Assembly (NCBI RefSeq): GCF_000455285.1
Contig: NZ_HG005289.1
Location: forward strand, 67,765 to 131,764
Origin: Candidatus Stoquefichus massiliensis AP9
Lineage (GTDB): Bacteria; Bacillota_I; Bacilli_A; Erysipelotrichales; Coprobacillaceae
Direction of reading: 5' to 3'
DNA: 64,000 nt
The notes under the pieces were generated by a model, which ran no database searches, was not told where the DNA came from, and saw only the letters and a program-made list of their open reading frames with translations. The number at the start of each line of letters is the position of its first letter. Position 1 is the stretch's first letter. Shown here piece by piece: positions 19,773-23,431 of the stretch. Position numbers and translations under genes: made by a program.

Positions 19773-19808
19773 TTTATTTGTCATTAATATAAATAATAAA
19801 ACAATTTC

Positions 19809-19838
19809 GTAAGCAAATAATAATTTTTATTTGCTTAC
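19809..19838. repeat. Perfect 12-bp inverted repeat
   Basis: Arms GTAAGCAAATAA and TTATTTGCTTAC with a 6-nt loop. No strong T-run follows on either strand, so it is a weak terminator at best. It sits between the GNAT pseudogene and a true terminator and may be a relic of a small mobile repeat. Confidence 0.6.
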
Positions 19839-19931
19839 ATATATAAGACTGACTTAATTAAATATCCAAAAGTCTGTAGAATAATTACGAAGCCTAATAG
19901 ACAGACATGATATTACTATTTTGAAGCAGAT

Positions 19932-20808: not shown

Positions 20809-23373
20809 TTACTCCTTTTCATTCCAATCTTGAATATCCTCTAATAAATAATTGCGACTTTTTTCTTGTTTTCTTTGAAATTCATCAAAACGCTCTTTTC
20901 CTAAAGACTCAACTTCCAACTTTAATTCTCGTGATGATATGCGTTGTGCTCCTCTTCCAATAACAATCGTTTGTTCAAGCGCATCAGAAGTCGCAACAAC
21001 CACGCGATAATCTTGTGCTAAATGATGAGTTACTCTTTCTATATACATATCAGCTGTCTGTGCTTCTTTTGTATAAACAATATAAATATCATGATTTTGT
21101 TGTAATGTTCCCTGATTTTCTTTCACTTTGTAAGCATCGAATACAATAATCATCAGACATTGTCGATAGCCCTGATAGTTACTTAAAATATCAACCAGTT
21201 TATCTCTTGCAGCACCTAAATTCATATTGGCTAATTCTTTAAGTTCAGACCATGAGTGAATGACATTATAGCCATCTACTAGTATGCATTCAGGTTTTAC
21301 CTGTACACGCATTGATTCAGCCAGTGGCTCCTTACAATAATAATCATCTGCTAATCTCCGTTTCACTGGTCCGTATGTATTTTCAAAAATTGCATCTAGT
21401 TCTTTATCAGATGATTGATAAGATGTGCTTCGCTGTGGTGATGGCTGGTTCTTCTTTTCAGGTGTCCAGCCACTATGAACATGCATATAATCTCGTACTT
21501 CTTGCCAATTCACATAAAATCCAGCTCCATGAGCACAGAAAATAGAACCTGTAGGATGATGGATATCTGCTTCACTATCATAATTAAATTGAAGAATCAC
21601 TTCTTCTTGATTATGACATGGCTGATATCCACTTAAAGCGCATATCAATCGTCCTTTTCCTTTTGTGTAAGAAATCACTTCTTGCTGATAATCTTGCAAG
21701 CACGACACTGGTGCCTGTCCCTCAATAATAACAGTATCTTCAATGACATCAGGGATTTGAAAAGTTCCATGTTTTTCTTCAAGATCATAGAGAGCTCTAC
21801 TTAAACAATCACTAGGTATTTCTAAATAAAATTGATAATAAGGTTCAAGAATAATGGATTCTGCCATTTTCAAACCTTGTCGAACAGCTCGATAAGTTGC
21901 CTCTCTAAAATCTCCACCTTCACTATGTTTTTGATGGGCTTTGCCTATCAATAATGTTATTTTCATATCTGTAATAGGTGCTCCTATTAAAACACCACTA
22001 TGTTCTTTTTCTTGTAAATGAGATAAAATTAATCTTTGGAAAGAACGACTCAAGATATCTTCTGAACATTCTGTAGCAAATTGCAACCCACTCCCTACTT
22101 CTAATGGTTCCAGTAATAAATGAACTTCTGCATAATGGCGTAATGGTTCAAAATGTCCAACACCTTCTACAGTATTCAGAATTGTTTCTTTATATAAAAT
22201 CTGTCCTTGATCAAAATCTACATTGACATGAAATCTTTCCTGAATCATATTTTTAAGAATTTCTATTTGGATTTCTCCCATCAACTGTACTCTTATTTCA
22301 TCTGACTGAGAATGATAAGTGACATGTAACGATGGATCTTCATCTGACAATAATTGTAAGTTCTTTAACATCTGATGTTGATCACAATTGGCTGGTAAAA
22401 CAATACGATAGTTCATATACGATGAAAGAACAGGCTGATGAGACGTTGATTCAAAACCTAAACCAGTACCTGGCTGTATGTTTTTCAGTCCTTTCAAAGC
22501 AACAATATCACCAGCATATGCTTCATTAATCATTTCATATTTTTGACCAGTATATCTTCTGACTTGATCAATTTTTTCATCATCACTTAGTTTACTCTTA
22601 GCCAGTAGTTTTCCACCAGTTATCTTGATATGCGTAAGTCTAACATTTTCTTCATATGTCACTTTATAAACAATTGCTCCAAAATCATGAGAGTATTTCT
22701 TTTCATTTGTATAGAGCAACAGGGCATCCATAAATTCTTCTACCCCATTGAGTTTTAAAGCTGAACCAAAAAATAGAGGGAAGACTTGTCTTGTTTCTAT
22801 CATATTTTTTATATTTTGAATTGATATTGTTTGTGTTGTGAGATATTCATCTAACATGTTTTCATCAATTAATGCTATATTTTCATAAAACTCATCATTT
22901 TGCTGGGTAAAATCAAGACAATGATTATCCAATTGCTGTTGTACATTTAAGATAAGTTCTGACTTTGAATATGAAGTCATATCCATTTTATTCATAAAGA
23001 TAAATGTAGGAACTTGATAATGTTCAAGCAATCGCCAGATTGTTTCAGTGTGGGGCTGAACGCCATCTAACCCATTAATAACAAGTATTGCATAATCCAA
23101 AATTTGTAATGTTCTTTCCATTTCCGCTGAGAAATCAGCGTGACCAGGTGTATCAATGAGTGTGATTTGAACATCTTTCCAATCAAAAATAGCTTGTTTA
23201 GAAAAAATAGTAATTCCTCTATCACGTTCTTGGTGATTATAATCTAAAAATGCATTCTGATGATCAACTCTTCCTAGTTTACGAATACTCCCAGATAAAT
23301 AGAGCAAACTTTCTGATAAAGTTGTTTTTCCAGCATCAACATGTGCCAAAATTCCAATGACTATCTTCTTCAT
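20809..23373 (-). CDS. Tet(M)-like ribosomal GTPase fused to Rae1/YacP NYN ribonuclease
   Basis: An 854-residue fusion. Residues 1 to about 640 follow EF-G-like ribosomal protection proteins: G1 AHVDAGKT (10-17), G2 RDRGIT (50-55), G3 DTPGH (74-78) and G4 MNKMD (near 130), then EF-G domains II-V. Typical Tet(M) ends near 640. A linker is followed from about residue 695 by a NYN/PIN-like domain like YacP: VDGYNVIHSW, then VFDAYK, TADMYIE and TSDALEQ carry its acidic residues. B. subtilis Rae1 (YacP) cuts mRNA in the ribosomal A site, so the fusion plausibly binds the A site and cleaves mRNA. The ATG at 23373 is used because GGGGGA lies 4 nt upstream. Tetracycline resistance is not demonstrated. 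Confidence 0.85.
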   Translation of the reverse strand: MKKIVIGILAHVDAGKTTLSESLLYLSGSIRKLGRVDHQNAFLDYNHQERDRGITIFSKQAIFDWKDVQITLIDTPGHADFSAEMERTLQILDYAILVINGLDGVQPHTETIWRLLEHYQVPTFIFMNKMDMTSYSKSELILNVQQQLDNHCLDFTQQNDEFYENIALIDENMLDEYLTTQTISIQNIKNMIETRQVFPLFFGSALKLNGVEEFMDALLLYTNEKKYSHDFGAIVYKVTYEENVRLTHIKITGGKLLAKSKLSDDEKIDQVRRYTGQKYEMINEAYAGDIVALKGLKNIQPGTGLGFESTSHQPVLSSYMNYRIVLPANCDQHQMLKNLQLLSDEDPSLHVTYHSQSDEIRVQLMGEIQIEILKNMIQERFHVNVDFDQGQILYKETILNTVEGVGHFEPLRHYAEVHLLLEPLEVGSGLQFATECSEDILSRSFQRLILSHLQEKEHSGVLIGAPITDMKITLLIGKAHQKHSEGGDFREATYRAVRQGLKMAESIILEPYYQFYLEIPSDCLSRALYDLEEKHGTFQIPDVIEDTVIIEGQAPVSCLQDYQQEVISYTKGKGRLICALSGYQPCHNQEEVILQFNYDSEADIHHPTGSIFCAHGAGFYVNWQEVRDYMHVHSGWTPEKKNQPSPQRSTSYQSSDKELDAIFENTYGPVKRRLADDYYCKEPLAESMRVQVKPECILVDGYNVIHSWSELKELANMNLGAARDKLVDILSNYQGYRQCLMIIVFDAYKVKENQGTLQQNHDIYIVYTKEAQTADMYIERVTHHLAQDYRVVVATSDALEQTIVIGRGAQRISSRELKLEVESLGKERFDEFQRKQEKSRNYLLEDIQDWNEKE

Positions 23374-23431
23374 ACAATCCCCCATATTCTACTTTTATTT
23401 TACCACGTCTCCATAAAGAGAACAATGGATA

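Follow-up and report, generated by a model that had tools for sequence, protein, structure and literature searches.

The 64,000-nucleotide stretch of DNA analysed here (the window), from Candidatus Stoquefichus massiliensis AP9, carries a gene in which an EF-G/Tet-like GTPase is fused to a C-terminal NYN_YacP domain, and this fusion replaces the stand-alone Rae1: it is the sole YacP copy in its genome, the yacP slot is vacated, and the fused and stand-alone forms are almost mutually exclusive. The encoded protein is probably the organism's Rae1, an A-site mRNA endoribonuclease carried on an EF-G/Tet-like GTPase; its nuclease and GTPase activities, ribosome binding, cutting in the A site and the coupling of both activities are what we infer. 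The combination of a GTPase with a NYN domain is already known, since the fusion architecture was published in 2015 (PMC4342817), and what is new here is that the fusion replaces Rae1 and stands apart from the Tet proteins.

Gene and domain structure

The features of the gene and its surroundings are given in Table 1. The strand opposite the fusion ORF contains stops throughout. A GGGGG ribosome-binding site precedes the ATG at 23373 and is overlapped by the upstream ATG at 23385, so that translation probably starts at 23373 and yields a product of 854 aa, MKKIVIGILAHVDAGKTT; the right-hand end given in an earlier note on this DNA is this same ATG. More than 100 independent fused ORFs exist, which rules out a sequencing artefact as the source of the fusion.

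Table 1. Features of the fusion gene and its downstream neighbourhood (positions in the window)
Feature	Residues	Positions	Strand	Basis or remark
Whole fusion ORF	858 aa	20809..23385	minus	probable true start ATG at 23373, giving 854 aa
G domain (GTP_EFTU)	8-226	22708..23364	minus	Pfam, 1.5e-52
P-loop AHVDAGKTT		23320-23346	minus
RGITI		23206-23220	minus
DTPGH		23140-23154	minus
NKMD		22981-22992	minus
GSALK		22753-22767	minus
EF-G domain IV (EFG_IV)	394-508	21862..22206	minus	Pfam
Clade-specific domain-IV tip KHSEGGDFR		21904-21930	minus	replaces Tet(M) loop SPVSTPADFR
EF-G domain V (EFG_C)	512-593	21607..21852	minus	Pfam
Clade-specific C-terminal extension, motif SIFCAHGAGFYVNW	580-640	21466..21648	minus	also in unfused relatives
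Linker	~55 residues	21304..21465	minus	low predicted confidence
NYN_YacP ribonuclease domain	701-853	20827..21285	minus	Pfam, PDB alignment, model
Putative metal-binding acid D704	704	21274-21276	minus
Putative metal-binding acid D750	750	21136-21138	minus
Putative metal-binding acid D779	779	21049-21051	minus
Putative metal-binding acid D801	801	20983-20985	minus
Protein of unknown family	268 aa	19996..20802	minus	6 bases downstream of fusion
Terminator-like hairpin after 268-aa gene		19808..19839	minus	consensus scan only

The earlier note had read the protein as carrying all G motifs of a Tet(M)/EF-G-like factor followed, after about residue 695, by a NYN domain, and had suggested a scan for the EF-G domains and NYN_YacP; Pfam recovers both. 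The P-loop, RGITI, DTPGH, NKMD and SAL motifs are intact, and EFG_III is detected along with GTP_EFTU, EFG_IV and EFG_C, domain II being weak (24.4 bits vs 27). With motifs G1-G5 and domains II-V the N-terminal part belongs among the EF2-type translational GTPases, and the best fold matches of the whole-protein model are EF-G and TetM. The NYN_YacP match (E = 9.4e-48, 162.8 bits vs a curated cut-off of 24.6) contains the VDGYN, VFDAY, TAD and TSD motifs where they had been claimed. Among PDB matches of the NYN part at E up to 1 we find only 5MQ8 and 5MQ9, both B. subtilis Rae1/YacP (3e-25), and D704, D750, D779 and D801 all align to the four acids of Rae1 in these structures. An AlphaFold2 model of the NYN part by itself (pLDDT 88.5) has Rae1 5MQ9 as its top PDB structural match (TM 0.71, rmsd 1.7 A); the predicted NYN fold and the metal-binding acids on which the earlier reading depended are both present. 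Domain score, acids and fold all place the domain with Rae1, and the agreement far exceeds what chance would give; it departs from Rae1 in its location in a fusion and not between rlmB and sigH, a position that is typical of Rae1/YacP as a stand-alone protein and not strictly defining.

To assess conservation we used 106 fused homologues selected by D704 and the P-loop, whose invariance in this set is not evidence because they served as selectors. The acids of VFD, TAD and TSD, which were not used for selection, are also invariant, and for this reason we reject a dead nuclease.

Between the two parts lie a C-terminal extension, with the motif FCxHGAGFxVxW across the clade, and a linker; the spacing from this motif to DGYN ranges from 65 to 121 residues across homologues. 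In the whole-protein model of the 854-aa form, pLDDT is <50 over most of residues 640-690, and pTM is 0.51, so the placement of the NYN domain relative to the GTPase is not readable from the model, which is unusable for docking.

The gene for the 268-aa protein is the probable operon partner of the fusion, and the hairpin that follows it suggests a two-gene unit. The 268-aa protein has no match in Pfam, NCBIfam or PADLOC, and its gene is kept in place in only 2 of the 20 relatives' loci examined (L054, 68%; L050, 51%). A second EF-G-like factor, in a 691-aa frame, is found at G000:C1:211309 (L070, L078), in addition to the EF-G that lies close to rpoB on contig C4.

Replacement of the stand-alone Rae1

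The window's genome has a single YacP domain, the one inside the fusion, and no second, stand-alone Rae1, and we therefore reject the retention of such a copy elsewhere in the genome. In B. subtilis, yacO (rlmB) and rae1 are adjacent and co-transcribed (PMC6613710). The window's genome keeps the order cysS-mrnC-rlmB-sigH-like-rpmG-secE-nusG-rplK with yacP missing between rlmB and the sigma factor gene, and the gap between rlmB (L076, 10120-10851) and the latter is 12 bp. All 13 stand-alone NYN genes whose surroundings were read, clostridial and desulfitobacterial, lie in the rlmB/sigH-like slot.

The same pattern extends to other genomes. YacP is present in 44 of 60 relatives, and 41 of these 44 have it in frames longer than 800 aa; a phylum sample has 37 of 39 over-cut-off matches in frames of at least 823 aa, the other two being a 615-aa frame and a split gene. 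Each of 30 fused genomes sampled from a separate named collection has exactly one over-cut-off YacP domain. The Desulfitobacteriia sample contains 30 genomes with the fused form, 9 with the stand-alone form and none with both. Among 391 Clostridia genomes, about 132 carry the fusion, and only one of them (G938) also has a stand-alone gene, which we estimate to be present in about 116 of the other 259, among the matches listed. A Fisher test of the exclusion in Clostridia gives P ~1e-24, which is not a true probability because the genomes are related, and the Clostridia and Desulfitobacteriia samples together give one exception in about 160 genomes. What looked like another YacP copy in each of G744, G809 and G850 was discarded as a match below the cut-off. 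That the fusion has taken the place of Rae1 implies that the function of Rae1 is kept.

Three genomes depart from the usual arrangement. G938 (L171, L172), the only sampled genome with fused and stand-alone Rae1, offers a natural redundancy test. G741 (L173, L174) has two different fused genes and may be a contaminated assembly. In G058 the GTPase and NYN parts are two overlapping ORFs (L065, 6027-8081 and 8078-8518), which reflects either a genuine split of the gene, with the two parts translationally coupled, or a frameshift error close to A-runs.

Origin of the fusion

The fused NYN domains are monophyletic with respect to the stand-alone ones (support 99/95; recovered in 98% of bootstraps). 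In a tree of 53 GTPases, built by a quick method and containing long branches, the fused and unfused members of the clade group together (99), every clostridial unfused protein falls outside the fused group, and an unfused protein of Ligilactobacillus salivarius is placed weakly beside it (82), possibly reflecting a loss of the NYN domain. The unfused members end after the C-terminal extension, at ~640-724 aa. These trees fit a single fusion event followed by spread.

Some Clostridia carry an unfused GTPase alongside a stand-alone Rae1, and unfused GTPases also occur in genomes that carry no NYN at all (G637, G642, G670, G686, G791, G815 and G942), which indicates that the GTPase does a job of its own and that Rae1 was joined to it; an obligate coupling between GTPase and Rae1 finds no support. 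In two genomes (L188, L189) an unfused clade GTPase lies directly downstream of a ligA-like (DNA ligase) gene. The presence of unfused GTPases with and without Rae1, together with the low-confidence linker of variable length, would also suit two halves that are tethered yet independent, the GTPase performing a separate translocation-like or drug-independent ribosome-clearing job and Rae1 being attached for localisation or dosage only. We regard this as rather unlikely, for a fusion of one origin has been kept in Erysipelotrichia-like, Clostridia and Desulfitobacteriia genomes while the stand-alone Rae1 was lost, which suggests that the link is selected.

Function of the fusion protein

Rae1 of B. 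subtilis is described in PMC6613710 and PMC8266666 as a ribosome-dependent A-site mRNA endonuclease. For the fusion, read as the organism's Rae1, we tentatively propose a GTP-gated ribosome rescue factor in which domain IV would test the decoding site and the GTP cycle would license cleavage of the A-site codon by the tethered Rae1. The GTP-bound EF-G-like part, as the ribosome-binding and perhaps timing module, would dock at the factor site of ribosomes that have paused or stalled, and domain IV with its HxKHTEGGDFR tip would probe the decoding site; GTP hydrolysis would release the EF-G-like part, and the NYN domain, held nearby on the flexible linker, could then cut the A-site mRNA, which would start decay of the message and release the ribosome to trans-translation or a pathway like it. 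Domain IV and Rae1 would compete for the A site, and this competition, which the earlier note did not raise, should be counted as a difficulty for the proposed mechanism: the protein would have to probe, hydrolyse GTP and withdraw before it cuts, unless the nuclease reached the mRNA elsewhere. A linker of 65-121 residues, from motif to DGYN, would allow sequential action. Rae1 in its stand-alone form acts on ribosomes with no GTPase attached, and the fusion therefore need not add regulation.

Alternatively, the GTPase might bring to the ribosome an RNase that matures rRNA or tRNA or serves ribosome quality control, a role once proposed for the YacP domain, as quoted in PMC4342817. The ancestral yacP locus does lie beside mrnC (23S maturation) and rlmB, but the mRNA-directed activity for which B. 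subtilis Rae1 is described makes this improbable.

Separation from the Tet resistance proteins

Atkinson (2015) described Tet-NYN fusions and speculated that they confer resistance through an RNase-based mechanism (PMC4342817), and the window protein, with its Tet-like trGTPase and C-terminal YacP NYN domain, is a member of that family. In the open-licence literature we found no functional study of, or experiment on, any fused member. The suggestion that the protein is a Tet ribosomal protection protein with an additional RNase-based mechanism, which some database labels echo, draws on the overall homology, as seen in the match to Tet(O) (E = 5e-84, ~31% identity). The family score, the tree and domain-IV loop III nevertheless lead us to reject a tetracycline-resistance identity, and we hold this reading to be very improbable. 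For the NCBIfam family tet_protect, with a cut-off of 775 bits, the window protein scores 431, other clade members 374-397 and two fused homologues 389-397, as against 876 for the Tet(M) control. In the long-branched 53-GTPase tree Tet(M/O/S/36), OtrA and a plasmid relative stand apart from the fusion clade (99). The fusion is usually present in one copy per genome and is not mobile-element-like.

Pro-509 of Tet(M), the tetracycline-displacing proline, lies at the tetracycline site and makes contact with C1054 (PMC8161019), and we confirmed that this residue lies within the loop SPVSTPADFR. The loop is present in 6 of 6 Tet references and in none of the 106 fused proteins or the unfused members tested, whereas the HxKHTEGGDFR tip occurs in 103 of the 106 fused proteins and in clostridial unfused proteins. 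Loop I differs as well (GHFEPLRHYAEV in the clade vs EVPPNPFWAS in Tet). The lack of the Tet loop and the conservation of its counterpart indicate, from sequence, that the domain-IV tip of the clade is strongly constrained for a purpose other than that of Tet. Tetracycline resistance by the fusion is not supported by the sequence, as the earlier note had stated, and its expectation of a resistance label elsewhere is borne out by an Agathobacter fused homologue annotated 'TetM/TetW/TetO/TetS family'.

An anti-phage device cutting mRNA on ribosomes during infection, although A-site mRNA cleavage would fit it, is so improbable that we reject it, given that for most of the family the fusion is the only Rae1 present, that it has no match in PADLOC or in viral contigs, and that no defence genes were seen beside it. 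Of the rescue or defence device previously proposed, the rescue half agrees with A-site mRNA cutting of the Rae1 type; the defence half finds no support, the gene being usually single-copy across a family.

Implications

If perhaps a third or more of Clostridia have Rae1 tethered to a GTPase, the fusion would represent a widespread, unstudied way of coupling mRNA decay to the ribosome, in organisms about whose collision and rescue pathways little is known. Were the GTP-gated mechanism true, the fusion would be the main no-go-decay-like nuclease for much of the gut Clostridia. The analysis also corrects one class of 'tetracycline resistance' label, which would make resistome counts from gut genomes too high.

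Comparison with known systems

B. subtilis Rae1/YacP (5MQ8, 5MQ9) resembles the C-terminal part in its NYN fold, its four acids and, in the fold comparison, 36-39% identity over the domain; unlike the fusion, it is a stand-alone protein of ~170 aa, encoded in the mrnC-rlmB-sigH locus and without a GTPase. Tet(M) and Tet(O) share EF-G domains I-V, the G motifs and ~31% identity with the fusion, but they differ in domain-IV loops I and III and in the C-terminal extension and form a separate clade, the fusion falling below their family cut-off. The unfused relatives (L179-L190; Ligilactobacillus salivarius pMP118) have the same C-terminal extension and differ in their shorter length and the lack of NYN; the clostridial ones share the HxKHTxGGDFR tip, and L. 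salivarius has xVHTVGGDFR. The Tet-NYN fusions of PMC4342817 share the architecture, a Tet-subfamily EF-G-like GTPase with a C-terminal YacP NYN. That study listed them for ten species of Clostridiales and put forward a resistance role, whereas we find the fusion in hundreds of genomes, also outside Clostridia, and it replaces the stand-alone Rae1 and is without the drug-displacing loop of Tet.
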